DNA of 64,000 bases from Roseicyclus sediminis (lineage in GTDB: Bacteria; Pseudomonadota; Alphaproteobacteria; Rhodobacterales; Rhodobacteraceae). The notes under the pieces were generated by a model that saw only the letters and a program-made list of their open reading frames with translations, searched no databases and was not told where the DNA came from. Of this stretch, positions 20,977 to 47,841 are shown piece by piece (the stretch's first letter is position 1; every line of letters starts with the position of its first letter). The stretch is from assembly GCF_025515305.1 (NCBI RefSeq), contig NZ_JAOPHT010000005.1:1-64000 (forward strand), written 5' to 3'. The translations under genes were made by a program, and so were the position numbers.

Positions 20977-21060
20977 TAGAACCTCCGAAAAATCTCAAAC
21001 GAGCAGATCACGGCGAGTGCTGGGGCCGATCCCGCTCGGCACAACGAAAGGAAACACCTC

Positions 21061-28652: not shown

Positions 28653-30931
28653 TCCGAGGCCACTCCTTGGGCGATGGGTTCGAGGGCGGAGACGGCGCGC
28701 AGCCGTTCCACATAGGTCATGGGCAGCGAACGGATGAGCCCGCCCGTCGCGTCCGCGAAGGCCGAGGCGATGGCGGGGGCGACGCCCACGATCGCCGTCT
28801 CGGCGATGCCCTTGAAGTTCAGGGGGCCGTCGTCCGTGCCCGACCCCACCGTCAGGACCTCGACATGCGGGACGTCCGCCTGCGTAGGGATCAGCGCCTC
28901 GCCGAGTTCGGCGTTGGTCCACGCTCCCGTCCGCCGGTCGAGGCGGGTCTCCTCCATCAACGCCTGTCCCAGACCCATGATCATTGCCCCGCGCAATTGT
29001 GCGGCGGCGATGGCCGGTTGCAGGACGCGTCCGCAATCATAGGCGCCGACCAGCCGGACGACCTCGATCTCGAGCGTGACCGGGTCGACGGCCATCTCGC
29101 AGAAGACGGCGCCGAAGCTCGCCTTGGCCTTGCCGGAGGCGCCGAAGGTCAACCCCGCGCGGCCGGACCCCGACTGGTCCCCATGCCGATACAGGAGGTC
29201 GGCCAGCGGGGCGCGCGATCCATCGGCAAGGGCCAGATCGGGGCCTTCGATCCGCGCCCTCTTCGCCTTGCGCCCAAACAGCGGAGAGGCGCGGTCCTTC
29301 CGCGTCCGATCCGCCAGCCGGGTCGCGATGCGATGGAGCGCGTCCTGAATGGCGGCAGCGTTCGAATAGGTGCCGGTGGACCCGATGGACCCGGCGGCAT
29401 ACGCCTCGGAGATCGCCTGTCGCCTGAGCGTGATCCGGTCGGGCGGCAGGCCCGTCATCTCGGACACGAGCCCGGTCAGCCCGGTCAGCAGCCCCTGGCC
29501 CATCTCGGCCACCGCAATGGAGACGACGGCGCGCGCGTCGGCCGTCAGCGTGACATGCGCGGTCGCGGGAAACTGCCGCCCGAGGTCGATGGCGGACGCC
29601 ATGCCGTAGCCGGTGAGGCGGCCATCCGGCCTGATGGTGCCGCCCTTCGGGCGGTCCCGCCACCCGATCGCGGCGGCGCCGGCGGCGTAGGCCCCGCGCA
29701 GGGCCTTCGCCTCCCACGGCGTGCCGCTGACGGGATGTGTGCCCGCGTGATTGAGGAGGCGGAGGTCCAGCGGGTCCATCCTCAGTCGCGCGGCCAGCCG
29801 GTCCATCCCCTGTTCCAGCGCGAAGATCGCGTGGGCGACCCCGGGGCCGCGCATCCAGCCCGCACCCGGCAGGTCGAGCTGCGCCACCCGGGAGGTCAGG
29901 CGATGGGTGTCATGGGTGTAAAGCTGGAACGGCATCTCGCCCACGGGCTCGACGAAGGCGGCATTGCCCTTCGCGATGTCGGGCTCGAGCACGATGGACG
30001 CGAGGCGTCCGTCGGGGTGCGCGCCAAGGCGGAGCCTCTGGCGCACCTCCGACCTGTGCGACATGAGCGAGAAGGTGTCGCGCCGGGTCTGGACGAATTT
30101 CACCGGCGCGCCCGCGACCCGCGCCGCCATGGGCGCGAGCAGCAGCGCCTGATACGAGATGTTGCGCCCGAAGGCCCCGCCGGAGAAGTGGTTGAAGAGT
30201 CGCACCCTGCTTTCGTGCCGCGACCTGCCGATCACCCGGCGCAGCAAGCCGGGCATCCCGTCGGACCATCCCAGCCCGAAAGCCTGCCCGATCATCATCG
30301 CGTCGATGTGGTGCCACTGGACCGCGGCATGAACGGTAACGCCGCCATCCCCATCCCACCGGGCGACGACAGCGCCGGGCTCGAGCGGGTTCTGGTGGTG
30401 GGGCGCGTTGTGGAAGGTGTCGTCCGTTGTGACCGTTGCGGCGGCAAGCGCCGAGTCGGCATTCCCCTTCCGGCTGCGCCCGGGACCTATCCCCGCACGC
30501 TTCACCGCCCGCAGGCGGTTGTCGGCATCCTCCAGCGTCACGACCGGGGCCGGACCGGGTTCGATGTCCAGCGCAATGGCGGCAACTCCTTGGCGGGCCG
30601 CCATCAGCGTCTCGGCGACGACCACCGCGACGACCTGACCCGCATAGGCGATCCGCGGCGATTGCAGAGGCAGACGGACCCCCGGCTCGGACATGCTGAG
30701 CGAGATGACCTTGCGCAGGCGCGGGGCGTTTTCGTGGGTCATGATCGCCCGCACGCCGGGCAGACGAAGCGCCGCATCGGTGTCGATCCGCCGGATGGTT
30801 CCGGAGCCTACCGGCGCCGTCACCGCGAGGGCGATCAGCGGGGTAAACCCGAGGACATCTTCGCGCAGGTCATCGACGAAGGGAGCCCGTCCCCGGACCT
30901 TGTCGGCGCCTTCGATCCTGTGGCCCCTCAT
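28649..30931 (-). CDS. Aldehyde oxidoreductase molybdenum-binding subunit (PaoC/xanthine oxidase family)
   Basis: A 760-aa catalytic subunit. The N-terminal a/b-hammerhead (about 15-125) is followed by the molybdopterin-binding halves, with blocks such as SGGAFGRNIS, RGPGVAHAIFALEQ, MGQGLLTGL and the late GIAETAIVGVAPAI carrying the probable active-site Glu. It should hydroxylate aldehydes or N-heterocycles using water. The gene order here is large-2Fe2S-FAD, whereas E. coli paoABC has the large subunit last. No XdhC/PaoD-type chaperone gene is seen nearby. Confidence 0.9.
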   Translation of the reverse strand: MRGHRIEGADKVRGRAPFVDDLREDVLGFTPLIALAVTAPVGSGTIRRIDTDAALRLPGVRAIMTHENAPRLRKVISLSMSEPGVRLPLQSPRIAYAGQVVAVVVAETLMAARQGVAAIALDIEPGPAPVVTLEDADNRLRAVKRAGIGPGRSRKGNADSALAAATVTTDDTFHNAPHHQNPLEPGAVVARWDGDGGVTVHAAVQWHHIDAMMIGQAFGLGWSDGMPGLLRRVIGRSRHESRVRLFNHFSGGAFGRNISYQALLLAPMAARVAGAPVKFVQTRRDTFSLMSHRSEVRQRLRLGAHPDGRLASIVLEPDIAKGNAAFVEPVGEMPFQLYTHDTHRLTSRVAQLDLPGAGWMRGPGVAHAIFALEQGMDRLAARLRMDPLDLRLLNHAGTHPVSGTPWEAKALRGAYAAGAAAIGWRDRPKGGTIRPDGRLTGYGMASAIDLGRQFPATAHVTLTADARAVVSIAVAEMGQGLLTGLTGLVSEMTGLPPDRITLRRQAISEAYAAGSIGSTGTYSNAAAIQDALHRIATRLADRTRKDRASPLFGRKAKRARIEGPDLALADGSRAPLADLLYRHGDQSGSGRAGLTFGASGKAKASFGAVFCEMAVDPVTLEIEVVRLVGAYDCGRVLQPAIAAAQLRGAMIMGLGQALMEETRLDRRTGAWTNAELGEALIPTQADVPHVEVLTVGSGTDDGPLNFKGIAETAIVGVAPAIASAFADATGGLIRSLPMTYVERLRAVSALEPIAQGVASE

Positions 30932-33540: not shown

Positions 33541-33903
33541 TCAATCCTGCGTCGGCGCTCCACGCCGAAACAGCAGCCTCTCTACGGTATAAACGAGGAT
33601 TGCGCCGCCGACGGCGCCCATGGCGGCAATGCCGAGCAAGACGATGACGTCGACCGGCCCGCCGATATCGGCAAGGTGGCTGTCGGTCATCTTCATGACG
33701 AACCAAACGGCCAGCACCGCCCCCACCGGCATGAAGAGCTGCGCTACCAGGAACTGGCGCATCCCGAGGCTTCGGTCGCGGATCAGAACGTAGATCCAGC
33801 CCAGCGTCACCAGCACCGCCGCGGCGACCATCGTCCAGAACAGGCCGCGGCCGAAGATCTCTTCGAAGACCGCGATCAGGGTGTCAAATGTCAATTCCTG
33901 CAT
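33541..33903 (-). CDS. DUF5368 family membrane protein
   Basis: A 120-aa protein with three hydrophobic helices (about 20-40, 52-70 and 84-105) and the opening FDTLIAVFEEIFGRGLFW that I associate with DUF5368. The function is unknown. It starts 13 bp after the sulfide:quinone oxidoreductase-type gene on the same strand, so it is very likely in one operon and may be a membrane partner for that flavoprotein. Confidence 0.7.
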   Translation of the reverse strand: MQELTFDTLIAVFEEIFGRGLFWTMVAAAVLVTLGWIYVLIRDRSLGMRQFLVAQLFMPVGAVLAVWFVMKMTDSHLADIGGPVDVIVLLGIAAMGAVGGAILVYTVERLLFRRGAPTQD

Positions 33904-33916
33904 TGTCGCGTCTCCC

Positions 33917-35233
33917 TCAAGCCTGTCCGCGCAACATCGCGTTGTAGGTGGCCTTCAGCGCCACCTCCTTCATCAGCCAGCTGATCCAAAGCTCTTCCAG
34001 CGGGGCGATGATACCCGGGAAGGACGGGGTCAGGTCGTTGTTGTAGTCGAACTCGATCAGCATCGCCCGCCCGATCCGCGTGATCAGCGGACAGGAGGTG
34101 TAGCCGTTGTAGGTCTCGGTTCCCTCGGCCCCCTGGATCGCGGCCACCAGATGATCCTCGACCACCGGCACCTGCCATTTCACGCTCGCCGCCGTCTTGC
34201 CCTTCGGCACGCCCGCCACGTCGCCCACGGCCCAGATGTTGGCGTAGCGGTTGTGGCGCAGCGTGGCCGGGTCGCAATCGACCCAGCCCTGGTCGGTCCA
34301 CCGGTCGGCCCATGCCAGACCCGACTGGCGCACGAACTCGGGTGCACGCTGCGGCGGGATGACGTGGAGGTAGTCGTACTCCTCGTCGTGGGTGAACCCG
34401 TCGGCATCGGTGAATGTGGCGATCTTCGTCCCGGCGTCGATGCTACGGAGCGTCCGCCCGTAGGTGTAATTGATGTCGCGCTCGTCAAAAAGCATGCGCA
34501 CCCGTTCGGCCACGATCGGCACCCCGAAGAGCGAGGATTGCGGCGCGATATAGTCGATCCGCGCGGCCCCTCGGGTCTCGGCCCGCGTCAGCCGGTCGTC
34601 GATCAGGAAAGTGTGCTTAAGCGGTGCACCCGCGCATTTCATCTCCGTCGCGGGTCGGGTGAAGACACCGCGCCCGCCCTCCTCGATGAAGCGGCTGGCC
34701 GCATGCCACGTCCGCGCGGCGTAGTCAGGCCCCGCGTAAAGCGCGCCGATGCCGTTCTCGCCCACCAAGTCGAGCGAGAAGCCCTCGATCGCGTCATGGT
34801 CGAGAATCAGCCCCGGTGCCACGACGAGGAAGTCATAGTCCAGCGTCTCGCCCCTTTCGGTCGAGACGGTCTGCGCCTCGGGGTCGACCGCCGCGACCCG
34901 CGCGGGGATCAGCGTGACGCCATCGGGCAGCCAGTCGGTGGTCTGGCTGACGACATAACTCGGAGGCTTGAGGCCCGCGGCGACCAGCGTGAGGCCCGGC
35001 TGATAGAGATGTTCGACCCGCGGGTCGATCAGGGTGATCTGCGCCCCCTCCAGCCGGTCGACGAGGCGATTGACCAGCGCCGTGCCCGCAGCGCCTGCGC
35101 CGATGATGACGATGCGCGCGTTGGTCGGCACCGCCTGCGCTTGTACAGCCTCGCCCGGCAAGGCCGCAGCAGCACCGCCCGCTGCGGCAAGGGCCAGAAA
35201 GGCGCGGCGACTGGTCTGAAACTCTCGGGTCAT
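33917..35233 (-). CDS. sqr: Sulfide:quinone oxidoreductase, type II-like, with Tat signal
   Basis: 438 aa. A Tat-type signal (SRRAFLALAAAGG, about residues 8-33) precedes an FAD Rossmann motif GAGAAG (45-50). The two redox cysteines are Cys200 (KCAGAP) and Cys381 (YTSCPL), in the same local motifs as mitochondrial SQOR. HVIPPQRAPEF and AEFDY-like (IEFDYNN) blocks also match that group. It should oxidise sulfide to bound sulfane sulfur and pass electrons to quinone. The Tat signal places it on the periplasmic side. It follows the dsrE-like gene by 86 bp. Confidence 0.85.
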   Translation of the reverse strand: MTREFQTSRRAFLALAAAGGAAAALPGEAVQAQAVPTNARIVIIGAGAAGTALVNRLVDRLEGAQITLIDPRVEHLYQPGLTLVAAGLKPPSYVVSQTTDWLPDGVTLIPARVAAVDPEAQTVSTERGETLDYDFLVVAPGLILDHDAIEGFSLDLVGENGIGALYAGPDYAARTWHAASRFIEEGGRGVFTRPATEMKCAGAPLKHTFLIDDRLTRAETRGAARIDYIAPQSSLFGVPIVAERVRMLFDERDINYTYGRTLRSIDAGTKIATFTDADGFTHDEEYDYLHVIPPQRAPEFVRQSGLAWADRWTDQGWVDCDPATLRHNRYANIWAVGDVAGVPKGKTAASVKWQVPVVEDHLVAAIQGAEGTETYNGYTSCPLITRIGRAMLIEFDYNNDLTPSFPGIIAPLEELWISWLMKEVALKATYNAMLRGQA

Positions 35234-35319
35234 GTCATGTCTCCTACGGCGGTCGGGCGATTTGGCCCATCGGCCCGCCAGCGACCTGGGTGTGGCGGGC
35301 GACCGAGCCGGCTGGGGGA

Positions 35320-35760
35320 TCAGAAATTCAGGACACGGGTATCGGCATCCATGAGGCGTGCGGCCATCGCGTCGGGTGCGGCCACGCCGATGCCGTCAAG
35401 CAGCACCGAGGCGTCCTCGCCGCGCCCGGGCAGGTAGATCGCGCAGACCTCGACCGTGGCACCGGTTTGCGCGCGGATCACCTGCATCAGGCCCTGTGGG
35501 CTCATGTCACGCGGAGGCTGGCCCGCGGTGGCACTTTCGGGCGCGTCGTTCAGTGCGATGTCACCGGCCGGTCCGCAGAGCATGATATGCGCGTTCGCGC
35601 CCTGTTGGGCGGCTTGGAAGGTCAGCACGAGGGCCATCAGCTGCGTCTGGGGCTCGGGAGAGGTGATGATCGTCACGAGGTCGGGGCCGTCCTGAGCGGC
35701 GGCCATGCCGGAGGTGAGGGTCGTGGCAGCCAGGGCGACAGTTGCAAGAAGGTTTTTCAT
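35320..35760 (-). CDS. Periplasmic DsrE-family sulfur-relay-type protein
   Basis: A 146-aa protein with a signal peptide (about 1-22, ending MAAAQ) and a DsrE-like core: TIITSPEPQTQLMALVLTFQAA, then the conserved Cys in HIMLCGPAGD near residue 62 and a second Cys near 105 (VEVCAIYLPG). DsrE-type proteins carry sulfur on a Cys. Next to an exported SQR it could accept or bind sulfane sulfur in the periplasm. It begins downstream of a terminator that closes the cyd operon. Confidence 0.75.
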   Translation of the reverse strand: MKNLLATVALAATTLTSGMAAAQDGPDLVTIITSPEPQTQLMALVLTFQAAQQGANAHIMLCGPAGDIALNDAPESATAGQPPRDMSPQGLMQVIRAQTGATVEVCAIYLPGRGEDASVLLDGIGVAAPDAMAARLMDADTRVLNF

Positions 35761-35824
35761 TGGTTTCTCCAGAATGTTGATCCGCGAGGTCGCGCCGGTA
35801 GCGCGCGGCGTTTAATGGAAAAGA

Positions 35825-35857
35825 GGGGGCCGTGATCCGTGATTGGGCACGGCCCCC
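35825..35857 (-). terminator. Rho-independent terminator of the cydABX operon
   Basis: GGGGGCCGTG (35825-35834) and CACGGCCCCC (35848-35857) form a perfect 10-bp stem with a 13-nt loop. On the minus strand the hairpin is followed by CTCTTTTCC, a short T-tract. It lies 45 bp past the cydX stop and 65 bp before the dsrE-like start, separating the two units. Confidence 0.8.
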
Positions 35858-35901
35858 AGGGAACTTCGAAGGGATGATCGAAGTTGTCTCGGGATCGGGA
35901 G

Positions 35902-36018
35902 TCAGTCCTCGTGCTCTTCGGCGAGGATCTGGTCTTCGCGCATCTCGAGCCACATGGCGTTGACGACGGCGAAGATCGCGGCGAGCGGAAGGCCGAGAAG
36001 CCAGGCGAAATACCACAT
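35902..36018 (-). CDS. cydX: Cytochrome bd oxidase small subunit CydX
   Basis: A 38-residue protein, MWYFAWLLGLPLAAIFAVVN followed by AMWLEMREDQ and an acidic tail EEHED. The single transmembrane helix, the MWYFAW start and the acidic C-terminus are the CydX/YbgT signature. It lies 12 bp downstream of cydB on the same strand, with GGAGACC just before the ATG. CydX stabilises the haem groups of the CydAB oxidase. Confidence 0.93.
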   Translation of the reverse strand: MWYFAWLLGLPLAAIFAVVNAMWLEMREDQILAEEHED

Positions 36019-36030
36019 GATGGGTCTCCT

Positions 36031-37194
36031 TCAGTAGACGGTGTCGGAGTTGGCGGTGACATCGGCCTCGGTCACCTTGCCCCAGAGCACCCGGTAGACC
36101 CAGGCGGTGTAGGCAAGGATGATCGGCATGAAGATCGCCGTCACGACAAGCATGATGAAAAGCGTGAGGTGGGAGCTGGAGCTGTCCCAGACTGTGAGCG
36201 AGCTATTCGGATCCACGGTCGAGGGCAGGATGAAGGGGAACATCGTCAGGCCGACGGTCGAGATCATCCCGAAGATACCGAGCTTGGACCACAAGAGCGT
36301 GCTCACCTCGGAGCCCGACCGCAGGCCGCGGATGGCCATGGCGGTGCCGAGGAAGCCCAGCATGGGCGCGAGCGCGATCCAAGGCCGCGCGGCATAGGCG
36401 GCAAACCAGCTGTCGGTGCGTATGACCTCGGACATCAGCGGGTTCGATGGGCCGTCGGTGACGACATCGCCAGCGAAGGCATAACCTTCGATCCCCACGG
36501 CCAGCCACAGCCCCGACAGGGCGAAGCCCGCCATGGTCAGCATCCCCGTGATGGTGCCGATGCGCCTCGCGCGCTCTACGATCACGCCTTCGGACTTCAG
36601 GCCCAGCCAGGCTGCGCCATGGGTCAGCAGCATCGAAAGCGATACGACGCCCACGAGCAGCGCGAAGGGGTTCAGAAGCCCGAGGAACTTGGCGTGGAAC
36701 GTGCCGTCATACATCGGGTACAGCGTGTCGGTCAGGTGAAATGGAACGCCCTGCAACACGTTGCCGACCGCCACGCCGAAGATCAGCGCGGGTACCGCGC
36801 CACCGGCAAACAGCGCCCAGTCCCAGGCCGACCGCCAGGCGGGCGAGACCCGCTTGGAGCGGTACTTGAACGCCACGGGCCGGACGATGAAGGCCGCCAG
36901 GACGACGAACATCGCAAGGTAGAAGCCCGAGAAGCTGACCGCGTAGAGCGGCGGCCAGGCGGCGAAGATGGCGCCGCCGCCGAGGATGAACCACACTTGG
37001 TTGCCCTCCCAGACGGGGCCCACAGTGTTGATGACCATGCGCCGTTCGGTGTCAGTCCGGCCTACGAAGGGCAGGAGCGCGCCGACGCCCATGTCGAAGC
37101 CGTCCGTCAGAGCGAAGCCGATCAGAAGCACGCCCAGAAGCAGCCACCAGATGACTCGCAGGACATCGTAGGAGATGAGATCGTAAAGGGTCAT
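36031..37194 (-). CDS. cydB: Cytochrome bd ubiquinol oxidase subunit II
   Basis: 387 aa from the ATG at 37194, which has GGAG 8 bp upstream and gives the family-like N-terminus [21 protein letters not shown] at 37203 overlapping the cydA stop (GTGA) is possible but lacks a spaced ribosome binding site. About nine transmembrane helices are present. [16 protein letters not shown] is the family block in helix 1-2, and [16 protein letters not shown] follows. It forms the quinol oxidase with CydA and CydX in the inner membrane. Confidence 0.96.
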
Positions 37195-37199
37195 GTCCG

Positions 37200-38816
37200 T
37201 CACTCCGCGGGGGTTGCGATGGCACCCGGCACGTTGCCGTCATGGGTGCGTAAACGGTGTTCGTGGCGGGCCATCCAGGCGTCGGTTTCTTCGACATCGA
37301 GGAAGGGGCCCTTGCGGATGTACTTCACCATCAGGCCCATCTCGACGACGAACAGGACCGAGTAGAAGGTGACGAAACCCGCCAGCGTGATCAGAAGCTC
37401 GGCCGCGCCCAGGTGGCTGACCGACATTGCGGTGGGCAGCACGCCGTCGACCGTCCATGGCTGGCGTCCAAATTCGGCGACGAACCAGCCGAGTTCGGCC
37501 GCGATCCAGGGCGCGGGGATCACCGCGACCGCGCCCCAGAGCGCCCAGCGGGGGAACCGCATGCCACGGAACGACGCGCGATAGAAGAAGTAGGCCATCA
37601 TCCCGATGAAGGCGAAGCCGAGCGCGACCATCAGGCGGAAGGCCCAGAACAGCGGCCAGACCATCGGGATCGTGTCCTCGGCGGCCAGCGTGATCTGGTC
37701 GTCCGTCGCCTGCCGCGGATCGTCGATGTAGCGCAGCAGAAGGAAGGCGAAGCCGAGATCGGCGGAGTGCTCCTCGAAGGTCGCAGTGACGGTGGGGTCG
37801 GCGGCCTCGCCCTCCGCGCGGATCGTCTGCAGTGCGTCATAGGCGATGATGCCCGAGCGTATGCGCTCTTCGGCCCGCTGCTCCAGGTCGTTGATGCCCG
37901 GGATCTCGGTGTCGAGCGAACGCGTGCCGATCAGGCCCATCGCCCAGGGGATGTGGACGGCGTAATGCGTCTCGCGCGTTTCGAGATCGGGGAACCCGAA
38001 GGCGGTGAAGGGGGCGGGGGCCTCTTCCGTTTCCCACATCGCCTCGATCGCGGCGAGTTTCATCTGTTGGGAATGGGTGGCCGAATAGCCCGACTCGTCG
38101 CCCAGCACGACGACCGACAGCGCCGAGGCGAGCCCGAAGCTGGCCGCGACCGCGATGGAGCGGCGGGCAAGCTCTGTGTGGCGGCCCTTCAGCAGGTACC
38201 AGGCCGAGACGCCGAGGACGAAAACCGAGGCGGTGACGTAGCCCGCGCTGACGGTGTGAACGAACTTCGCCTGCGCGACCTCGTTGAAGAGCACGTCGAA
38301 GAACGACGTCATCTCCATCCGCATGGTCATCGGGTTGAATTCCGCGCCGACCGGGTTCTGCATCCAGCCGTTGGCGATGAGGATCCAGAGCGCCGAGAAG
38401 TTCGAGCCGATGGCGACGAGCCAAGTGACGACGGCATGGGCCGTCTTCGACATCTTGTCCCAGCCGAAGAACATCAGGCCCACGAAGGTCGCCTCGAGGA
38501 AGAAGGCCATGAGCCCCTCGATCGCGAGCGGCGCACCGAAGATATCGCCGACATAGTGGCTGTAGTAGCTCCAGTTCATACCGAACTGGAATTCCATGGT
38601 GATGCCGGTGGCGACGCCGAGAACGAAGTTGATGCCGAAGAGCGTGGCCCAGAATTTCGTCATCTGCCGCCAGATCGGGCGGTTGGTCATCACATAGACC
38701 GTCTCCATGATCGCCACGATGATCGACAGACCCAGCGTGAGCGGCACGAAGAGGAAGTGATACATAGCGGTCATCGCGAATTGCAGTCGCGACAGTTCGA
38801 CCACGTCGAGTTCCAT
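37200..38816 (-). CDS. cydA: Cytochrome bd ubiquinol oxidase subunit I
   Basis: A 538-aa haem-binding subunit. His20 in [12 protein letters not shown] is the probable haem b595 ligand, and GRQPW (in [12 protein letters not shown]) is the conserved Q-loop/quinol-site end. The long periplasmic Q-loop between helices 6 and 7 indicates the L-type, as in E. coli CydA. It reduces O2 to water using quinol, with high oxygen affinity and resistance to NO and sulfide. The ATG at 38816 follows AAGGAGACGGAGAC. A perfect FNR box lies 83 bp upstream. Confidence 0.97.
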
Positions 38817-38898
38817 GTCTCCGTCTCCTTTTGTCTTTCCGAAGGGGCACTCCTCCCCGGGTTTGGCTGCCGTTCTAAGGGGGCGGGCAGGGGCGGCC

Positions 38899-38912
38899 TT
38901 GATCTGGATCAA
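38899..38912. promoter_or_regulatory. FNR/FnrL box upstream of cydAB
   Basis: TTGAT-CTGG-ATCAA matches the FNR consensus in all ten defined positions. It lies between the end of cydC and the cydA start, 83 bp from the latter. It is consistent with low-oxygen induction of cydABX by FnrL. An adjacent AT-rich stretch (ATATATTCAAGATAT, 38918-38932) may bind a second regulator. Confidence 0.8.
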
Positions 38913-38922
38913 ATAGATATAT

Positions 38923-40581
38923 TCAAGATATGCTTTTTATCGTCAACTTTCTGTCGCAGGCCGAGAGGTCGGTGTCTCGGTGCGTCGCAAGCAGGACGGC
39001 GGCGTTCGGCAGGTGGGACTTGATCGTGGCCAGCACACCGTTAGCGCTGTTCGGGTCCAGCCCTTCGGTCGGCTCGTCGAGCAGCAGGATCGCGGGGTGG
39101 CGCAGAATCACGCGGGCCAGCGCCACGCGCCGTGCCTCGCCCCCCGACAGGCCCGTGCCACCTTCGCCAAGCGCCATGTCGAGCCCACCGCGAGGCGCGA
39201 GCGCGGGCCAGAGGCCCAGATCGGTCAGCAGGGTCTGCATCTGGCCGTCGGTCACGTCCGGCGCGGCCAGCCTCAAGTTGCTGCGGATGGTTCCGGACAC
39301 CAGACGGCTGGCCTGCGGAAGGTAGCCAAGCCGGGCCCGCAACGTGCCCTCGGACAGGTCATCAGGGGCGCTGCCGTCCAGCAGGATCGTGCCCGACAGC
39401 GGCTGCGCAAGGCCCGAGATGGCGTTAAGCAGCGTCGATTTTCCACGGCCCGACCGCCCGGTCAGGGCGACAATTTCGCCGGGTGCGACATGCAGGTCGA
39501 TCGGCCGTATCAGGGCTGTCGCCGAGCCGGGCGCAGCCACGGAGACGCCCCGTAGGCTGAGGCCCGGTTCGACCTCTCCGACATGGCCGACACTTGACCG
39601 CGGGTCCTGCCGCGCTTCGAGGGTCGGTGCCAGCCGCGCCGCGGCGTCGCGCATCCGACCGATCTCGGCGATGCCGCGATGGAGGGGCGCGAGCGCCTCG
39701 GCCAGGGCGAGGGCCGCGAAGACCGCGATGGCTGCGGCGGCAGGAGTGATCGCCTCTTCAAGCGCCATTTGCCCACCGATCGCCAGCGCCCCCGCCGCGG
39801 CGAGCATTGCACTGCCCGAGGCCATGGTCGCGGCGCGCCTGTCGAGCTGCGTTAGCCTGCGCTCGGCGGTCCGCGCCGCGGCGTCGTGCGCGAGGACCTG
39901 CGCCCGTTCGGACAGGAGCGACCCGGCGAAGGTCAGGATGGCGCGCGCGCGCAGGTGTTCGACTGCAGCACTTCGCAGCGCCTGCCGGGCCGCCTCGGCT
40001 TCGGCAGCCGGTGCGATGGCGCGGCGTCCCTCTACGATCATGGCCAGCGCCGCGCCCGTGGCCAACGTACCGACGACCCAAAGCGCGACGACCGGCGCGA
40101 CCAGCCATACCAGCAAGGCGCCCGCCGCGACGAGTGTGACCCCCCCGGCGAGGATCGGAAAGACCAACCGGATCGCCACGCCGTCCAGTGCGTCCACATC
40201 CGCCGTAACTCGGTTGAGCATCGACGGGCTGCGCAGCCGGGCCAGCGTTTCTACAGGTTGCATCGACAGCCCATCCAGCACCCGCAGGCGCAGGCGCGCC
40301 AATGAGCGCAGGGTCGCGTCATGGGTCAGGATGCGCTCGCCATAGCGTGCGGCGGTGCGGCCTAGTGCCAGCATCCGCACGCCTGCCGAGGGGCGAAAGA
40401 CGTCGAAGGCGATGCCGATCCCCGCCACCCCTGCGGCCCCCGTGGCGGTCACGAACCAGCCAGACAGCCCCAGCAGGGCCGCCCCCGCAAGAAGCACAAT
40501 GACCGACAGGGCCAGCCCGCGGGCTAGCGCCGTGCGTTCCTCGCCCCATATGGCACGTGCGATGCGCCAGAGCGGGCTCAT
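38923..40581 (-). CDS. cydC: ABC transporter CydC (cytochrome bd assembly)
   Basis: 552 aa. An N-terminal six-helix exporter domain (about 15-300) is followed by the ATPase with P-loop GRSGRGKST, signature LSGGEARRVALAR and Walker B ILLLDEPTEG. CydDC exports cysteine/glutathione to the periplasm and is needed for haem insertion into cytochrome bd. The start overlaps the cydD stop (ATGA). It ends 11 bp before the FNR box that precedes cydA. Confidence 0.93.
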   Translation of the reverse strand: MSPLWRIARAIWGEERTALARGLALSVIVLLAGAALLGLSGWFVTATGAAGVAGIGIAFDVFRPSAGVRMLALGRTAARYGERILTHDATLRSLARLRLRVLDGLSMQPVETLARLRSPSMLNRVTADVDALDGVAIRLVFPILAGGVTLVAAGALLVWLVAPVVALWVVGTLATGAALAMIVEGRRAIAPAAEAEAARQALRSAAVEHLRARAILTFAGSLLSERAQVLAHDAAARTAERRLTQLDRRAATMASGSAMLAAAGALAIGGQMALEEAITPAAAAIAVFAALALAEALAPLHRGIAEIGRMRDAAARLAPTLEARQDPRSSVGHVGEVEPGLSLRGVSVAAPGSATALIRPIDLHVAPGEIVALTGRSGRGKSTLLNAISGLAQPLSGTILLDGSAPDDLSEGTLRARLGYLPQASRLVSGTIRSNLRLAAPDVTDGQMQTLLTDLGLWPALAPRGGLDMALGEGGTGLSGGEARRVALARVILRHPAILLLDEPTEGLDPNSANGVLATIKSHLPNAAVLLATHRDTDLSACDRKLTIKSIS

Positions 40582-42275
40582 GCGGCCCCCTCCATCGCCT
40601 GTGGCGCAAGGGCGACCCGACGGTCCATCGCAGCCGCAAGCGCTGCGTCATGGGTCGCCACGATGACGGTCACACCGCCGGCCTTGAGCGCCATGAGCGC
40701 CGCGATGACCTCGGCGGCGGTGGCGGCGTCGAGGTCGGCTGTCGGCTCGTCCGCAAGCAACACGGGCCGACCCGACAGGGCCGCACGCGCCAGGATCAGC
40801 CGCCGCGCCTCACCACCCGAAACGCCGCCACCGCTTTCGCCTAGCTCTGCATCGAGGCCGCCCGGAAGGCGGGCGACGATATCCCAGGCCGAGGCGAGGG
40901 CGAGCGCGGAATCGATCTCAGCTTCGGTCGGTTGGGTCGGGCGGCCGAGCGTCAGCGTTTTCCGCAGCGGACCAGCCAGCATCTGTGCGGCCTGCGGCAC
41001 CCAGGCGATCCGGGCGCGCCACCCATCCGCAGTGGTAGCCGAAAGCGGCACCCCGTCGATCATGATCTCGCCCCGATCCGGCGTCTCGAGGCCGCCGATC
41101 AGGGACAGAAGCGTCGACTTCCCGCTGCCCGACGGGCCTGTCAGGGCCACAGCCTCGCACGGTCTAAGCGTCAAGTCGGGGAAAGCCAGCGCGCCGAGTT
41201 GCAGGCCGGTCAGGGTGAGGGTCGGCGCGTTCGGCGCGGGACCGTCGGCCCCGCCAGTACCAATGATCTCGGCAGCGTTTTTGGCTTCGGTCTCGGCCAG
41301 TTCCCCCGTGACAGCGAGCGCGCCCGCCTTGTCATGCCAGGCCGCGGCGAGGTCGCGGAGCGGCTGGAAGAACTCGGGCGCCAGCATCAGGAGGAAGATC
41401 CCCTCGCTGAGCGTGAGCGGCTTGGCCCATGCGCCGTACGGAATCTCTCCCAACAGCGCGAAACCGACATAGACTGCGACCATCGCCACCCCGATGGCCG
41501 AGAAGAGTTCCAACACCGTGGACGACAGGAAGGCGACGCGCAGCACGGCCATGGTGCGGGCGCGCAGCCCCTCGGCCCGGTCGGCGAATTCGGCGCTCAT
41601 GCGCCCGCGCGCGTCCAGCAGGCGGATATCGGTCAGTGCCGAGAGGCGTTCGCCCAGCAGCCCCGAGAGCGAGCCAATCTCGTCCATCTGCCGCTCACTC
41701 GCCTCGCGCGCGGCCATGCCGACGAGCGCCATGAAGACGGGGATCAGGGAGCCTGCCAAGGCAAGAATCATGGCGACGGCCCATGAGAACGGCAGGGCAA
41801 AGGCGAGATAGGCGAGCGGCAGGATCGCGGCACGCAGCGCCGCGGGGCGTTGGCGCAGGATCGCGGGCCGCAGGAGTGGCAGCTTTTCGGTGAGCATGGC
41901 CGCCGTCGCTGCCGAGGGTGCCCGCTCGGCCCGCGGCGCGAGGCGGTCCTGCGATGTGAGAAGTGCTGCGCGTTCACGGGCCAGGATGTGGTCGGCCGCG
42001 TGGTCGAGCCGCGCCGCCGCCCAGTGGTTGGCCCCGATGCGCAGAGCGCCCGCGGCAAGAAACAGGCCGGTCATCGCCCAGATGATGGAGGGCGCTGCCT
42101 GCCCCTCGACCAGCCGCCCGAAGGTAGTCGCCACCGCGGCGGCCATGGCGGGCCAGGCCAGGCCCGCGATGACGGTCAGCGCGGCGGCCCGCGTGATGCC
42201 GGGCGCTTCGGGCGCGATGGCCTGCGCGAAGCGTGCTTGCGCCGGGTCGGGGGATTTCTTGCTAAAACGTCGCAT
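40578..42275 (-). CDS. cydD: ABC transporter CydD (cytochrome bd assembly)
   Basis: A 565-aa exporter half. The transmembrane domain (about 30-320) is followed by the ATPase with P-loop GPSGSGKST, signature VSGGEARRLILAR and Walker B PVLLADEPTADLD. It works as a heterodimer with CydC. It is the first gene of cydDC, divergent from the Rrf2 regulator. The 106-bp gap carries an FNR-like box and an AT-rich dyad reaching into the start codon. Confidence 0.93.
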   Translation of the reverse strand: MRRFSKKSPDPAQARFAQAIAPEAPGITRAAALTVIAGLAWPAMAAAVATTFGRLVEGQAAPSIIWAMTGLFLAAGALRIGANHWAAARLDHAADHILARERAALLTSQDRLAPRAERAPSAATAAMLTEKLPLLRPAILRQRPAALRAAILPLAYLAFALPFSWAVAMILALAGSLIPVFMALVGMAAREASERQMDEIGSLSGLLGERLSALTDIRLLDARGRMSAEFADRAEGLRARTMAVLRVAFLSSTVLELFSAIGVAMVAVYVGFALLGEIPYGAWAKPLTLSEGIFLLMLAPEFFQPLRDLAAAWHDKAGALAVTGELAETEAKNAAEIIGTGGADGPAPNAPTLTLTGLQLGALAFPDLTLRPCEAVALTGPSGSGKSTLLSLIGGLETPDRGEIMIDGVPLSATTADGWRARIAWVPQAAQMLAGPLRKTLTLGRPTQPTEAEIDSALALASAWDIVARLPGGLDAELGESGGGVSGGEARRLILARAALSGRPVLLADEPTADLDAATAAEVIAALMALKAGGVTVIVATHDAALAAAMDRRVALAPQAMEGAA

Positions 42276-42293
42276 TTCAAATATACATTATCG
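42272..42293. promoter_or_regulatory. AT-rich site at the cydD start, possible NsrR/Rrf2 operator
   Basis: On the minus strand it reads ATGTATATTTGAAATGC, a partial match (about 12 of 16 half-site positions) to the NsrR-type pattern ATGYATTT-N-AAATRCAT. The cydA upstream region shares the YATAT(C/T)TTGAA part near 38917-38935. It overlaps the cydD start codon and is 90 bp from the divergent Rrf2 gene. The assignment is tentative. Confidence 0.4.
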
Positions 42294-42312
42294 TGGGATG
42301 CGCCGCGGCGGA

Positions 42313-42326
42313 TTGATCAGGGTCAA
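42313..42326. promoter_or_regulatory. FNR-like box between cydD and the Rrf2 gene
   Basis: TTGAT-CAGG-GTCAA differs from the FNR consensus at one position. It lies 38 bp upstream of cydD and 56 bp upstream of the Rrf2 regulator, so it could serve either direction. Confidence 0.7.
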
Positions 42327-42381
42327 TGTTCCGCGAGGGCCGATGCGCCATGTCGGAGCACGGGCAAGAACGGAGGCCGGG

Positions 42382-42822
42382 ATGCGGCTGACGACGAAAA
42401 CCAATCTGGCGATGCGCGTGCTGATGGCCTGCGCGGTCAACCGTGGGCAGGTGCTGCGCAAGCATGACCTCGCAAGCGCGGTGAACGCCTCGGAGGCGCA
42501 TCTGGCCGTGGTGATCAACCAGCTCGGAAGGCTCGGCTTCTTGACCACGGTGCGGGGGAGGAACGGTGGGCTCAAGTTGCGCCTCGCGCCCGAGGAGATC
42601 TCGGTCGGCAAGGTCTTTCGCCTCTTCGAAGGGGGGATGCCGCTTGCCGAATGCTTTGACCGCGAGACCAATACTTGCCCGCTGTCGTCCTGTTGCCGGC
42701 TGAGCGGCTCGATCGGTCGCGCGCTTGAGGCGTTCTTCGCCACGCTCGACGGCGTGACGCTGGCCGACCTGGTGGAGGAGAACGCGGGCCTTGCCCGCAT
42801 CTTGCAGATCGAGCCCGCCTGA
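42382..42822 (+). CDS. Rrf2 family regulator, NsrR-like
   Basis: 146 aa. A winged HTH at about 1-65 (ASEAHLAVVINQLGRLGF, VRGRNGGLKL) and Cys91, Cys99, Cys104 and Cys105 in CFDRETNTCPLSSCC. The spacing Cys91-x7-Cys99-x5-Cys105 fits the [4Fe-4S] nitric-oxide sensor NsrR. The start at 42382 was chosen because the family begins MRLTTKTNLAMRVL, and a longer frame upstream runs into cydD. It is divergent from cydDC, which it probably controls in response to NO or iron-sulfur damage. Confidence 0.8.
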   Translation: MRLTTKTNLAMRVLMACAVNRGQVLRKHDLASAVNASEAHLAVVINQLGRLGFLTTVRGRNGGLKLRLAPEEISVGKVFRLFEGGMPLAECFDRETNTCPLSSCCRLSGSIGRALEAFFATLDGVTLADLVEENAGLARILQIEPA

Positions 42823-42838: not shown

Positions 42839-43822
42839 TCAGCCGCCTCCGATCAGCGCGCCCGCCGCGAAGACCAGCGCGCCGCCCAGCACCACTTGAA
42901 AGGTCGCGCGCAGAAACGGTGTGTCCATGAAGCGGTTCTGGATCCAGACGATGGCCCAGAGCTCGACGAAGACCACGATGATGGCGGTGATCGTGGCGGT
43001 CCAGAAATCGGGGATGAGATATGGCAGGGCGTGGCCAAGGCCCCCCAGCGTCGTCATGATGCCGGAGGCGAAACCGCGCTTTGCCGGCGAGCCGCGGCCC
43101 GACAACTCCCCATCGTCGGAGGCAGCCTCGGTGAAACCCATCGAGATGCCCGCCCCGACCGAGGCGGCGAGCCCGACGAGGAATGTCGTCCAGGTGTCCT
43201 GCGTGGCAAAGGCGGTGGCGAAGATCGGGGCCAGCGTCGACACAGAGCCATCCATCAGCCCGGCCAGCCCCGGTTGAACCCAGGTCAGCACGAATTGCCG
43301 GTGGGCGCGGTCGTCCTCGGTCTCGCGGGCATCGGCATCCAGATGCGCCTCGGCGGCACGGTCGGCACTGGCGCGGTGGCTGGCCTCGGCCCGAGCAAGA
43401 TCGCCCAGAAGCTTGCGGGTGGCGGCATCTTCGGTGCGCGCGGCGGCTTTGAGGTAGAATGCTTCGGCGTCCTGCTCCATGGCCGCGGCCTCGTCCCGGA
43501 TCCGGTCGAGGCCCAGGTTCTCGACCAGCCAGACGGGGCGGCGTGCGAAATAGCCCGCGACATGTTCGCGGCGGATCAGCGGGATGACCTCGCCGAAGCG
43601 GGCGCGGTGCAGCTCGATCAGGCGTTGGCGGTGGCTGTCCTCCTCTGCTGCCATTTCGTCGAACATTGCGGCGCTGTCTTGGTAGTCGGCGCGTAGGCGT
43701 TCGGCGTAGCTGCGGTAGATGCGGGCGTCATCTTCCTCGGAGGAGATGGCCAGTGCCAGCACCTCCTGTTCGGACAGGTCGCGGAACCTGAGGCGGTTGA
43801 ACCCGAACCCTTCCAGTCCCAT
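42839..43822 (-). CDS. mbfA: Membrane-bound ferritin-like iron exporter MbfA
   Basis: 327 aa. The N-terminal ferritin-like domain (about 1-170) has diiron-type Glu/His motifs (SEEDDARIYRSYAERL, EEDSHRQRL, EQDAEAFYLKAA, EASHRASADRA). It is fused to a VIT1/CCC1-type transporter domain with about five helices (WVQPGLAGLMDGSVSTL onward). MbfA exports iron and protects against peroxide in related alphaproteobacteria, where Irr controls it. Its place near the peroxiredoxin and OxyR-like genes fits that role. Confidence 0.93.
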   Translation of the reverse strand: MGLEGFGFNRLRFRDLSEQEVLALAISSEEDDARIYRSYAERLRADYQDSAAMFDEMAAEEDSHRQRLIELHRARFGEVIPLIRREHVAGYFARRPVWLVENLGLDRIRDEAAAMEQDAEAFYLKAAARTEDAATRKLLGDLARAEASHRASADRAAEAHLDADARETEDDRAHRQFVLTWVQPGLAGLMDGSVSTLAPIFATAFATQDTWTTFLVGLAASVGAGISMGFTEAASDDGELSGRGSPAKRGFASGIMTTLGGLGHALPYLIPDFWTATITAIIVVFVELWAIVWIQNRFMDTPFLRATFQVVLGGALVFAAGALIGGG

Positions 43823-43883: not shown

Positions 43884-44321
43884 TCAGCCGCGGTTCGGGC
43901 CGAAATCGGCGGTCGTGATGACGCCATCTCCGTCGCGGTCCATGCCGGCAATCCAGGTGGTGACCCGGGCAAGAAACTCCTCCAGGCTGACGGCACCATC
44001 GGCATCGACATCGTTGAAGGGCAGCGTCATGCCTTCGGATACGCGCATCATCGCGCCCTGGCCGTGGCCACCGTTGTTTTCCATGTCGAGCGCGCGGGTT
44101 TCGTCGAAGAGCACGTATTCTTCGGCATCGAGCAGACCGTCTTCGTTCATGTCGAACATCGCAAAGACATCGCCGCGGCGGGCGGTGGCTTCTTCAACGG
44201 TTACGATACCATCCATATCCGCATCCCAGCTTTCTATGAAATGGGCACCGGGCTGGCCCTGCTGCGCGAGGGCCTGCGCGGCGGCGAGAAGGGCCGCAAG
44301 GGTGAGAGGGACGAGTTTCAT
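43884..44321 (-). CDS. Secreted EF-hand calcium-binding protein
   Basis: A 145-aa protein with a signal peptide (about 1-19, ending ALAQQ). Four EF-hand-type loops are visible: DADMDGIVTVEE, DMNEDGLLDAEE, DVDADGAVSLEE and DRDGDGVITTAD. It is very acidic and probably a periplasmic calcium sensor or buffer. The start at 44321 follows GAAAGGA. It lies between mbfA and the peroxiredoxin on the same strand. Its partner is unknown. Confidence 0.85.
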   Translation of the reverse strand: MKLVPLTLAALLAAAQALAQQGQPGAHFIESWDADMDGIVTVEEATARRGDVFAMFDMNEDGLLDAEEYVLFDETRALDMENNGGHGQGAMMRVSEGMTLPFNDVDADGAVSLEEFLARVTTWIAGMDRDGDGVITTADFGPNRG

Positions 44322-44349: not shown

Positions 44350-45003
44350 TCACAGGGCACGGGTGGAGAAATACCAGTCGGCGGTATCGTAGCCCTCAGC
44401 CATGCGGGCCTCGGCGGCCTCGGTAGTCTGCGGGGTCGGCACGATCACGTCTTCGCCGGGATGCCAGTTCTCGGGCGTGGCCACCTTGTGCGTGTCTGAG
44501 GTCTGGAGCGCGACCAGCAGGCGGTGGATCTCGTCGACAGAGCGGCCATTGGTCATCGGGTAGTAGACCATCGCGCGCAGAACACCCTCGGGGTCGATCA
44601 CGAAGGTCGCGCGGACGGCTTGCGTGTCGGACGCGCCGGGCTGGATCATGCCGTAGGCACGCGCCACGGCCATGTCGAGATCGGCGATGATCGGAAAGGT
44701 GACGTCGACGCCGAAGCTCGCCTTGATCGAGCGGACCCAGGCGATGTGGGCGTAGTGGCTGTCGATCGACAGGCCCAGAAGCTCGGTGTTCATCGCGGCG
44801 AACTCATCGGCGCGGCGGGCGAAGGCCATGAATTCGGTCGTGCAGACAGGGGTGAAGTCGGCAGGATGCGAGAACAGGATCAGCCATTTGCCGCGGTAAT
44901 CGGCGAGGCTCTTGCGGCCATGGGTGGTCAACGCGTCGAACTCCGGCGCGGCCTCGTTCAGACGGGGCAAGGTCGTGGGTTGGGTTGGGGTGATGGCGTT
45001 CAT
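44350..45003 (-). CDS. 1-Cys peroxiredoxin (Prx6 type)
   Basis: A 217-aa thiol peroxidase. The peroxidatic Cys54 lies in HPADFTPVCTTE, and the long C-terminal part (PMTNGRSVDEIHRLLVALQ, then ATPENWHPGEDVI) is that of the Prx6/AhpE-like 1-Cys group. It reduces H2O2 and organic peroxides. It is divergent from the OxyR-like gene (gap 106 bp), the classic regulator/target layout. Confidence 0.92.
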   Translation of the reverse strand: MNAITPTQPTTLPRLNEAAPEFDALTTHGRKSLADYRGKWLILFSHPADFTPVCTTEFMAFARRADEFAAMNTELLGLSIDSHYAHIAWVRSIKASFGVDVTFPIIADLDMAVARAYGMIQPGASDTQAVRATFVIDPEGVLRAMVYYPMTNGRSVDEIHRLLVALQTSDTHKVATPENWHPGEDVIVPTPQTTEAAEARMAEGYDTADWYFSTRAL

Positions 45004-45109: not shown

Positions 45110-46021
45110 ATGACGACGCTCCGGCAGATGCGCTTTCTTGTGGCCCTGGCCGACACCGGGAATTTCTCCCGCGCGGCGGAGCTGTGCCATGTCACCCAAT
45201 CCACTCTTTCCACCGGCCTGAAAGAGATGGAGGCGCGGTTGGGCGTGCAGGTCGCCGAACGCTCGACCCATTCGGTCCTGATGACGCCAGTAGGCCGGGA
45301 CCTGGCCGAGCGGGCGCGGGATATCCTGGTCCGTGTCGGCGATTTCGAGGCGCGCGCAAAATCCGAGGCCGAGGCGGGTGTAACGACGCTGCGCTTAGGG
45401 GCTATCCCCACGGTTGGGCCGTTCCTTCTACCCCATGCCCTGCCGATGATCCGCCGCCTCAAGCCCGGCATGAAGGTCTACCTGCGCGAGGAACTGACCG
45501 AGGCGTTGGTCGCGGGGCTGATCGAGGGGCGGCTCGACCTGATCCTGATCGCGCTGCCGCATGAGCTGCCGCCGCAGATCGCCACGCATCCGCTGTTCGA
45601 GGATGGCTATTCGCTCGCCACCCCGCGCGCGCATCCTTTGGCCAACCTTTCACTGGTTGAAGGGCCGGACCTGCAAGGCCGCGATCTGTTGTTGCTGGAA
45701 CGCGGGCATTGCCTGCAGCAGCATGCGTTGTCGAGCATGCCGGGCGTAGCGCTTGGCGAAAGCGGATCCTTCTCGGCCACCAGCCTGCCGACACTGGTGG
45801 CGATGGTGGAGGAAGGGTTGGGCATAACGCTTCTGCCCGATCTCGCACGTGATGGTGGCGTGGCGCGCGGGCATGATCTCCAACTGACCGCGCTGGCAGG
45901 CGCGACACCGCGTCAGATCGCGCTAGCCTGGCGCAACAGCACAAGCCACGCGGGGCTTTACAACGAGATTGGCGACATTCTGGCCGCGGCGCGAAACGAC
46001 TTGCACAGTCGTGAACACTGA
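45110..46021 (+). CDS. OxyR-like LysR regulator lacking the second sensor cysteine
   Basis: 303 aa. The HTH at about 2-60 contains NFSRAAELCHVTQSTLSTGLKEME, which is OxyR-like, and the sensing loop LLLLERGHCLQQHAL puts Cys201 at the OxyR Cys199 position. The following segment is SSMPGVALGES, with no Cys where E. coli OxyR has Cys208. The regulatory domain resumes with FSATSLPTLVAMVEEGLGITLLP. A peroxide sensor using one Cys (sulfenate or mixed disulfide) is the likely reading. It is divergent from the peroxiredoxin gene. Confidence 0.85.
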   Translation: MTTLRQMRFLVALADTGNFSRAAELCHVTQSTLSTGLKEMEARLGVQVAERSTHSVLMTPVGRDLAERARDILVRVGDFEARAKSEAEAGVTTLRLGAIPTVGPFLLPHALPMIRRLKPGMKVYLREELTEALVAGLIEGRLDLILIALPHELPPQIATHPLFEDGYSLATPRAHPLANLSLVEGPDLQGRDLLLLERGHCLQQHALSSMPGVALGESGSFSATSLPTLVAMVEEGLGITLLPDLARDGGVARGHDLQLTALAGATPRQIALAWRNSTSHAGLYNEIGDILAAARNDLHSREH

Positions 46022-46483: not shown

Positions 46484-47215
46484 TCAATACGGTCCCCGTC
46501 TTGCCCCGAGCCGCCCGTCAATGATCTCGACGATGCGCCGTGATCGCCGGATGTCCTCGTCAACGCGCTCGATCTCTCGTGGATCGTCCAGTGACTTGCG
46601 GTATTCAAGCAACTCATCGACCTCAGCCTGGAAGTCGTATCGACGACGCATGAACTCGTCGTACTCCGCCTTTTCCTCCTTCGTTGCGGGTCCGACGACA
46701 CGAGCCGTCCCTTCGTTCATGTCGATGATGATGTCATCGGGATGCGGCAACGGGTCGGGCAGGTCCGTGATGCCAAGTTGCTCGCGACGACGCAGTTCCT
46801 TCTCCCACTCCACCTTGTAGGTGATCGCTACGTCGAGCCATTCGTCGTGCAGAGCCTTGTTGGCGTTCTCCGTTGAGGCGAGCAGCTCGGCGAACAAGCG
46901 TTGTGCCCGCGCATGCCCCTTGGCGGCATTGACCGCGATCGAGCGCATGACGGCCTGTGCCATTGGGATCGTCACGTTGCGGTCCCCATCCCGAACCTGG
47001 ATGCCACGATAGGCCTCGTCGAGGATGATACCCTTCATGCGCTCCTCGTGAAGCGCAGGCCGCTTATTCTTCGCACCCTTCGGCCGCCCGCGCGGATTGC
47101 CGGACTGACCCGGCTTGAACCGTGTTGCCTCGGGCGGTTTGCCGTATCCGACCTCGTAGCCCGGCCGAGGCATCAGCGCCCTGCCCTTCTCTCCGCTGTT
47201 CTTAACGTCCTTCAT
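46484..47215 (-). CDS. DUF5681 domain protein
   Basis: A 243-aa protein. The DUF5681 core (YGKPPEATRFKPGQSGNPRGR, then PKGAKNK) lies at about residues 24-50, followed by a charged, probably helical region. This domain is common in phages and integrated elements, often beside a DNA methylase or terminase, and its function is unknown. The start overlaps the methyltransferase stop (ATGA), so the two genes once formed one operon. Confidence 0.8.
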   Translation of the reverse strand: MKDVKNSGEKGRALMPRPGYEVGYGKPPEATRFKPGQSGNPRGRPKGAKNKRPALHEERMKGIILDEAYRGIQVRDGDRNVTIPMAQAVMRSIAVNAAKGHARAQRLFAELLASTENANKALHDEWLDVAITYKVEWEKELRRREQLGITDLPDPLPHPDDIIIDMNEGTARVVGPATKEEKAEYDEFMRRRYDFQAEVDELLEYRKSLDDPREIERVDEDIRRSRRIVEIIDGRLGARRGPY

Positions 47216-47549
47216 TCCGCGGCCTCCTGGAGGATAGCCGGCGGCACCCAGCCACAAACCAGCTGCTCGGCCTCATCCTTGGCGAAAGCCTCCCATCGGG
47301 CGAGGATCCGGTCGCAATAGATCGGGTCGAGCTCGCAAAGATAGCCGCGACGGCCCGTCTTCTCAGCAGCAATGAGCGTCGAGCCAGAACCGCCAAAGAG
47401 ATCGAGGACAATCTCGCCACGCCCCGAGACATCGCGGATGGCGTCAGCGATCATCTGCACGGGCTTCACCGTGGGATGCAGGCTCAGCTCCTCCATCCGG
47501 CCCTTCCGCATCGTGTTGACGCCCTTGTACTGCCAGACGTTCGTCCGGT
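47212..47549 (-). pseudogene. DNA methyltransferase (N4/N6 type), N-terminal part missing
   Basis: Only about the last 110 residues remain. TNVWQYKGVNTMR, LHPTVKPVQMIADAI, VLDLFGGSGSTLIAAE and YLCELDPIYCDRIL are the C-terminal part of a beta-class methylase (motifs X and I). The catalytic (D/N/S)PP(Y/W) motif and the rest are absent. The homology stops at about 47550, exactly where the element-end repeat begins, so an insertion or later deletion cut the gene there. It overlaps the DUF5681 gene. Confidence 0.82.
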
Positions 47550-47815: not shown

Positions 47816-47841
47816 ATGGCGCGAGCTTGGCAGCACAGCCA

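Follow-up and report, generated by a model that had tools for sequence, protein, structure and literature searches.

A Tat-signal sulfide:quinone oxidoreductase paired with DUF5368 adjoins cytochrome bd genes in Roseicyclus sediminis: a candidate low-oxygen sulfide respiration module

The closest described counterparts of the locus reported here are the type II sulfide:quinone oxidoreductases (SQRs), among them human SQOR and the bacterial SQR-PDO systems; flavocytochrome c sulfide dehydrogenase and SoxF; and the cytochrome bd oxidases that permit respiration in the presence of sulfide. Flavocytochrome c sulfide dehydrogenase and SoxF are exported through the twin-arginine translocation (Tat) pathway and deliver their electrons to a cytochrome c, and the Q loop of cytochrome bd faces the periplasm. 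The bd oxidases of Escherichia coli are described as insensitive to sulfide and keep oxidizing quinol under it (PMC4815019), and in Acinetobacter SQR, PDO and cydAB are induced by sulfide, with a link via the quinone pool predicted (PMC7315123; review PMC8148161). In the portions of these sources available to us, the Acinetobacter genes are co-induced and are not described as one cluster. Here we analyze a 64,000-nucleotide stretch of DNA from R. sediminis (contig NZ_JAOPHT010000005.1, positions 1 to 64,000; hereafter the window), in which cytochrome bd genes and the gene for an SQR bearing a Tat signal (Tat-SQR) are neighbors.

The genes lie on the minus strand in the order cydD-cydC-cydA-cydB-cydX-dsrE-sqr-DUF5368, with an Rrf2 gene divergent at the head. 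We propose, with a probability of roughly two in three, that the locus is a module for sulfide respiration at low oxygen, a periplasm-facing electron path from sulfide to quinone to cytochrome bd. The Tat-SQR and DUF5368 pair would oxidize periplasmic H2S and reduce ubiquinone with the electrons, and DUF5368 would serve either to dock SQR or to shape how it reaches the quinone; a sulfide-tolerant CydABX would oxidize the resulting quinol at low O2 and stay active under conditions that block haem-copper oxidases. The DsrE-fold protein would take periplasmic sulfane sulfur through conserved cysteines, and FNR-type boxes would bring both the SQR and the cyd halves under low-oxygen control. A preliminary description of this DNA had named the genes of the block, and all of them are present at the positions it gave. 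The cytochrome bd set comprises CydA, CydB, CydX and CydDC, and the long Q loop of CydA appears as an insert relative to the genome's own CIO-type paralogue. The features of the locus are as follows.

33541..33903, minus strand: membrane protein DUF5368, with an amphipathic helix at the N terminus followed by three long ones (PF17336, 161 bits; AlphaFold predicted local distance difference test [pLDDT] 86)
33917..35233, minus strand: Tat-signal type II sulfide:quinone oxidoreductase (family scans, structure matches, alignment)
35320..35760, minus strand: DsrE-fold protein with signal-peptide-like start and conserved C62 and C106 (alignments, AlphaFold, Foldseek)
35817..35857, minus strand: terminator-like hairpin and T-rich tract 3' of cydX (by eye, L127 of the same genus has a comparable hairpin in this position)
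35905..36018, minus strand: cydX, small bd subunit, 37 aa (PF08173, E 1e-14)
36031..37203, minus strand: cydB, bd oxidase subunit II, start possibly 37194 (TIGR00203, 425 bits, above the NCBIfam cut-off)
37200..38816, minus strand: cydA, bd oxidase subunit I, long Q loop (PF01654, 582 bits; start from gene calling)
38899..38912, minus strand: FNR-type box TTGATCCAGATCAA, 96 bases upstream of the cydA start (pattern scan)
38923..40581, minus strand: cydC, ABC exporter subunit for bd assembly (TIGR02868, 343 bits, above cut-off)
40578..42275, minus strand: cydD, ABC exporter subunit for bd assembly (best match TIGR02857, 416 bits, just below the cut-off of 435)
42313..42326, minus strand: FNR-type box TTGACCCTGATCAA, 51 bases upstream of the cydD start (pattern scan)
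42382..42822, plus strand: Rrf2-family regulator, divergent from cydD, cysteines C-X7-C-X5-C (PF02082, 102.7 bits)

Tat-SQR and DUF5368 constitute one gene unit. We mapped gene neighborhoods by tblastn in a survey set of 196 genomes from the order Rhodobacterales, in which Tat-SQR occurs in 34 genomes at 35 loci (62–100% identity); in a named set made up of the best 80 of 583 matches to the window SQR, in which proportions are not frequencies; and at outgroup loci drawn for DUF5368 and SQR from 289 genomes of the class and 249 of the phylum. The survey and named sets overlap in several genomes and are counted apart, except in the pooled scan for FNR-type boxes and the pooled count of hairpins after cydX. 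DUF5368 directly follows Tat-SQR at 35 of 35 survey loci and at 79 of the 80 named loci, the contig of the 80th ending inside SQR, and it scores above cut-off in the same 34 survey genomes as Tat-SQR. Above-cut-off DUF5368 was found in 11 of the 289 class-draw and 5 of the 249 phylum-draw genomes (the window's own family included), and outside the family each of the 10 above-cut-off loci is directly preceded by a twin-arginine SQR of 49–79% identity. The earlier suggestion that DUF5368 is a membrane partner of SQR therefore stands strongly for the gene pair, and does not extend to function. Among the titles and opening lines of abstracts of open-licence papers, we found none on DUF5368 or on a Tat-SQR-DUF5368-cyd cluster, and the name DUF5368 appears in none of the papers of the collection searched.

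Structural models provide some information regarding how such a partner might be arranged. The AlphaFold model of DUF5368 (pLDDT 86) consists of a short N-terminal helix followed by three long helices, and the best conserved zone is formed by residues 1–18. The loop after long helix 1 carries on average 3.8 lysines and arginines, and the loop after long helix 2 carries 0.7; these charges predict an N-out topology, which would place residues 1–18 in the periplasm, on the side of the exported SQR. We infer that the novel part of the locus is DUF5368 as a putative dedicated membrane partner of SQR, and a role of this kind would be the first testable one for DUF5368.

The window SQR is alike to type II SQRs in sequence, in its catalytic cysteine pair and in a conserved C-terminal end. 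Its closest solved structure is the human-type mitochondrial SQOR (215 bits, E 1e-62, over 397 residues), while 3hyv (53 bits) and 3sxi (32 bits), which we take to be other SQR types, and flavocytochrome c sulfide dehydrogenase entries (55–69 bits) score lower. Cys200 and Cys381, the pair singled out in the preliminary description, are invariant across 23 aligned sequences, the window's included. What sets the protein apart from type II SQR and SQR-PDO systems is its Tat signal (TIGR01409, 17.8 bits against a cut-off of 16.7) and its DUF5368 partner, in a unit of its own without PDO. Flavocytochrome c sulfide dehydrogenase and SoxF are likewise flavoproteins, but their likeness to the window SQR is weak (E 4e-18 to 5e-14), and the window unit has no cytochrome gene. 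Twin arginines are present at all 35 survey loci, all 80 named loci and all 10 outside-family loci, those of L070 and L087 having been read directly from the sequences, and the nearest named relatives of the window protein come from Roseicyclus (92% and 84%). A type II SQR with a Tat signal should be exported folded and be positioned at the inner membrane on its periplasmic side; the periplasmic placement proposed earlier thus gains a twin arginine in every member checked, with export itself a prediction. By its title, a 1999 paper of Schutz, cited in PMC5061849, is said to give the SQR of Rhodobacter capsulatus a periplasmic place.

Linkage of this unit to cytochrome bd recurs across genomes. 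Nine of the 34 survey genomes have Tat-SQR right behind cydABX, and at 39 of the 80 named loci it is linked (cydX or cydB upstream within 3.5 kb); these 39 belong to Roseobacteraceae and Paracoccaceae, with a few from Rhizobiaceae, Amorphaceae and Stappiaceae. Among named strains, Celeribacter baekdonensis DSM 27375 (L167) and Marivita cryptomonadis CL-SK44 (L231) show the linked order, and in Paracoccus denitrificans DSM 413 (L184) Tat-SQR is unlinked. One survey locus, G098, was scored as linked and long-type from its cydB and cydX, though its contig begins within cydB. The usual gene order is cydDCABX-(TDT/SLAC1)-(dsrE)-sqr-DUF5368, or one with TDT and dsrE downstream of DUF5368. Long-Q-loop cydA occurs in 18 of the 34 Tat-SQR genomes versus 14 of 162 others (p 2e-8). 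In genomes with both genes, the distance from Tat-SQR to long-Q-loop cydA is below 10 kb in 8 of 17, versus 0 of 20 for CIO-type cydA among the matches listed (p 6e-4), counts of the latter type being lower bounds. A single origin of the linkage was rejected: the SQR trees require 7 changes over 35 rows and 17 over 90 rows, at least 10 of them forced by starred branches, where the bootstrap of the 35-row tree is not settled, the 90-row tree was built by a quick method and gains are not separable from losses. Judged from sequence, a Tat-SQR with a strictly paired membrane protein, repeatedly joined to long-Q-loop cytochrome bd, is a new arrangement of known kinds.

A gene for a TDT/SLAC1 transporter often follows cydX or DUF5368 (L114, L118, L076, L094), and its product could export sulfite or another sulfur anion.

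The distribution of FNR-type boxes suggests that oxygen limitation governs both halves. We scanned up to 300 bases upstream of each gene for the pattern TTGA-N6-TCAA, which we take to be the FnrL motif and which has a background mean of 0.016 sites per 260 bases. Boxes precede 17 of 26 unlinked Tat-SQR units in the survey set and 22 of 39 in the named set, versus 0 of 9 and 1 of 39 linked units (p 1e-3 and 1e-7, respectively). In the pooled sets, a box stands before cydA at 46 of 68 loci, before cydD at 6 of 69, cydB at 2 of 69 and cydC at 0 of 66; the corresponding counts are 0 of 114 for DUF5368, 6 of 63 for dsrE, 3 of 35 for TDT, 1 of 35 for PDO and 0 of 13 for cioA, with 3 of 4 for speD, whose upstream region can be shared with Tat-SQR. 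Where the region is in view, linked loci have a box before cydA or cydD in 4 of 8 survey cases and 26 of 36 named ones. In the window, cydD and cydA are each preceded by a box and the 300 bases upstream of dsrE and of sqr contain none; the second Tat-SQR copy in the same genome has a box at -82. On a simple reading, the Tat-SQR unit would be a low-oxygen gene that loses its own box once placed behind cyd, the group of L072 and L155 excepted. Together with the linkage counts and the enrichment of long-Q-loop cydA, the boxes at both halves and the presence of one Rrf2 clade beside both argue for the sulfide electron path put forward in the preliminary description.

Several observations weigh against this path. 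At 26 of the 35 survey loci, Tat-SQR has no cyd genes next to it, so that the neighborhood comparison in Rhodobacterales, which the preliminary description had offered as a means of refuting itself, speaks against a constant block while bearing out a recurrent linkage. Of the linked loci whose upstream region is covered, 4 of the 8 in the survey set and 10 of the 36 in the named set lack an FNR-type box before cydA or cydD; they are largely members of one tree group (L072, L155 and kin). Other Crp/FNR regulators bind similar motifs. The p values given here overstate independence, because the genomes share ancestry. Three of the 9 linked survey loci have no dsrE gene nearby, which weakens the earlier idea, itself a conjecture, that DsrE acts as periplasmic sulfur acceptor. 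Nor do the counts favor Sox as the general destination of sulfur passed on by DsrE, SoxB showing no enrichment in Tat-SQR genomes (25 of 34 versus 94 of 162 genomes, p 0.12). For DUF5368, the stretch with a below-cut-off match in G266 lacks an SQR of this kind, and a fold search of the model in the PDB gave 8 matches, none with E < 0.001. Finally, the genes do adjoin as one block, as first described, but the terminator-like hairpin between cydX and dsrE weighs against one transcript, and the nearest relative, L152, has the same hairpin.

The likeliest alternative is that the genes are low-oxygen neighbors with shared regulation and no dedicated circuit, SQR feeding the general quinone pool of all oxidases. 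Tat-SQR-DUF5368 and cydABX carry FNR-type boxes separately, most survey loci are unlinked and the window insert sits behind the hairpin, all of which speaks for it. The preference of Tat-SQR for the vicinity of long-Q-loop cydA over listed CIO-type cydA, and the number of linkage changes that the tree forces, run counter to it, and we consider this explanation unlikely.

The hairpin itself has a stem of 10–11 bases, a T-rich tract and a region z of -2.4; a scan with a loop limit of 8 did not list it. In the same-genus genome G016 (cydA 89% identical), the cyd operon has no SQR, a terminator-like hairpin is found at the same place (by eye) and Tat-SQR lies beside rplM. This correspondence suggests that dsrE-sqr-DUF5368 was placed behind an old cyd terminator, and in the window lineage the set probably arrived there recently. 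In the pooled sets, hairpins of this sort follow cydX at 3 of 39 loci where the next gene is sqr or dsrE, at 2 of 10 where it is TDT and at 13 of the 23 remaining loci. With the SQR half behind a cyd terminator, coupling in the window would come about by neighborhood and shared conditions.

The divergent regulator and the genes beyond it bear on a second alternative, in which the island responds to stress from nitric oxide, iron or peroxide and SQR is one of several detoxifiers. The Rrf2 protein exceeds the superfamily cut-offs (PF02082, 102.7 over 30 bits; TIGR00738, 82.7 over 73.3 bits), and the name NsrR-like given to it earlier does not hold for the family: it scores 91 bits with NsrR (cut-off 182) and a higher 129 bits with RirA (cut-off 193), both below cut-off. 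A quick tree divides the Rrf2 proteins into two groups (support 100). The first, the window's clade, comprises 37 rows and covers linked loci as well as SQR-only and cyd-only ones; the 12 rows of the second stem from CIO loci (11) and a single PDO-SQR cluster. Two further genes of the window concern this alternative.

44350..45003, minus strand: 1-Cys-type peroxiredoxin, a recurrent neighbor (NF009668, 289 bits, above cut-off; PF10417)
45110..46021, plus strand: LysR-type regulator resembling OxyR, divergent from the peroxiredoxin gene and likewise a recurrent neighbor (top-scoring model OxyR, 198 bits, under the cut-off of 329)

In the window, Rrf2, an MbfA iron exporter, the peroxiredoxin and the OxyR-like gene lie beside the block, and the peroxiredoxin/OxyR-like pair recurs near linked Tat-SQR (L072, L074, L077, L086), as a stress island would have it. 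The pair also recurs with PDO-SQR sulfide clusters (L072, L074, L112, L209), however, and MbfA is near no other linked locus in the stretches examined, which makes a stress island quite improbable. Less probable still is a Tat-SQR acting on another periplasmic sulfur donor (thiols, persulfides) instead of sulfide, an idea that its distance from tested enzymes and the normal SQR-PDO set of the same genome would allow, but that sits badly with the retention of both cysteines and the C-terminal region and with unlinked Tat-SQR copies that adjoin PDO, YeeE or SulP genes (L178, L182, L207).

Returning to the sulfide-to-bd path, the DsrE-fold protein was characterized largely through its predicted structure. 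It has no match in Pfam even at E 10, and its sequence match to YchN is weak (E 0.057), with a conserved cysteine opposite a YchN cysteine. An AlphaFold model built from 28 aligned sequences (pLDDT 88) retrieves 1jx7 (YchN, E 7.7e-7) and chains of 2hy5 (DsrEFH) and 2d1p in Foldseek, so the fold is assigned on a predicted model; neither C62 nor C106 varies in the alignments of 21 and of 28 sequences. Fold and cysteine are thus alike to the DsrE/YchN/TusD family, from which the window protein differs in its signal-peptide-like start and its lack of adjoining DsrF and DsrH genes and of a Pfam match. Listed relatives also begin with a signal-peptide-like stretch (by eye). The signal-bearing DsrE protein of the preliminary description therefore holds up by predicted fold, and finds no backing in Pfam. 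The protein is encoded in 20 of the 34 Tat-SQR genomes versus 12 of 162 others (p 1e-10), a total of 32 that becomes 33 with the weak match in G162 (E 9e-4). SoxB is enriched with DsrE (28 of 32 versus 91 of 164 genomes, p 6e-4).

Genes for DsrE are also seen beside Crp-YeeE-PDO clusters (L112, L150) with no bd gene in the stretch examined, and the protein may therefore be a general partner in sulfide oxidation. Two copies look broken, one by a split frame (L104:14849-15285) and one by an internal stop (G176:C16:14433-14744); intact copies exist elsewhere.

Normal, cytoplasmic SQR is found near CIO, the other bd subfamily, in 9 of the 39 genomes with both, and close to long-type cydA in 1 of 13; a preference of normal SQR for CIO is not supported, as the difference is not significant (p 0.42). 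At the nine CIO loci (L100-L104, L107-L110), a divergent Rrf2 gene adjoins the sulfide cluster in 9 of 9 and a peroxiredoxin gene is present in 8 of 9. Five of the nine have a DsrE gene, two before cioA and three after cioB, one of the three being split. We entertain, as a tentative and somewhat doubtful extension, that DUF5368 is an obligate integral-membrane subunit of the periplasmic SQR, the two forming a two-subunit sulfide dehydrogenase that gives quinol to long-Q-loop cytochrome bd at the same membrane face. If this were true, these Alphaproteobacteria would have two sulfide respiration circuits, a periplasmic one of Tat-SQR, DUF5368 and CydABX and a cytoplasmic one of SQR-PDO and CIO, each with its own Rrf2 clade. 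The link between SQR and bd through quinone, which the accessible parts of the Acinetobacter reports draw from co-induction, would become a defined, deletable gene set. The locus also suggests that a type II SQR can oxidize sulfide outside the cytoplasm, which bears on marine bacteria at sulfide-oxygen boundaries.

The genome contains further sulfide oxidation genes. The second Tat-SQR-DUF5368 pair (83% identity) lies beside rplM-rpsI and speD, and the normal SQR, which has an added BLH/DUF442-like domain, is encoded in a Crp-YeeE-YeeE-PDO-SQR-SulP cluster. There is also a sox cluster, including a separate SoxF-like gene; sox gene names other than SoxB are our own assignments. The peroxiredoxin and OxyR-like genes recur beside the PDO-SQR cluster of L112.

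Elsewhere in the window, the MbfA gene (42839-43822, above the NCBIfam cut-off) and a gene for an EF-hand protein (43884-44321) are located between the Rrf2 and peroxiredoxin genes. Positions 46484-47836 hold short genes, one resembling a DNA methylase end (by eye), with a G+C dip to 0.61, and possibly represent a mobile remnant near the sulfide block. A second region, 16386-22000, is a possible integrated element, with tRNA-Gln, a large-serine-recombinase-like gene (16633-18273, minus strand; by eye) and G+C down to 0.60. Three adjacent frames at 27211-30931 look by eye like genes for a molybdenum hydroxylase (medium, small and large subunits).

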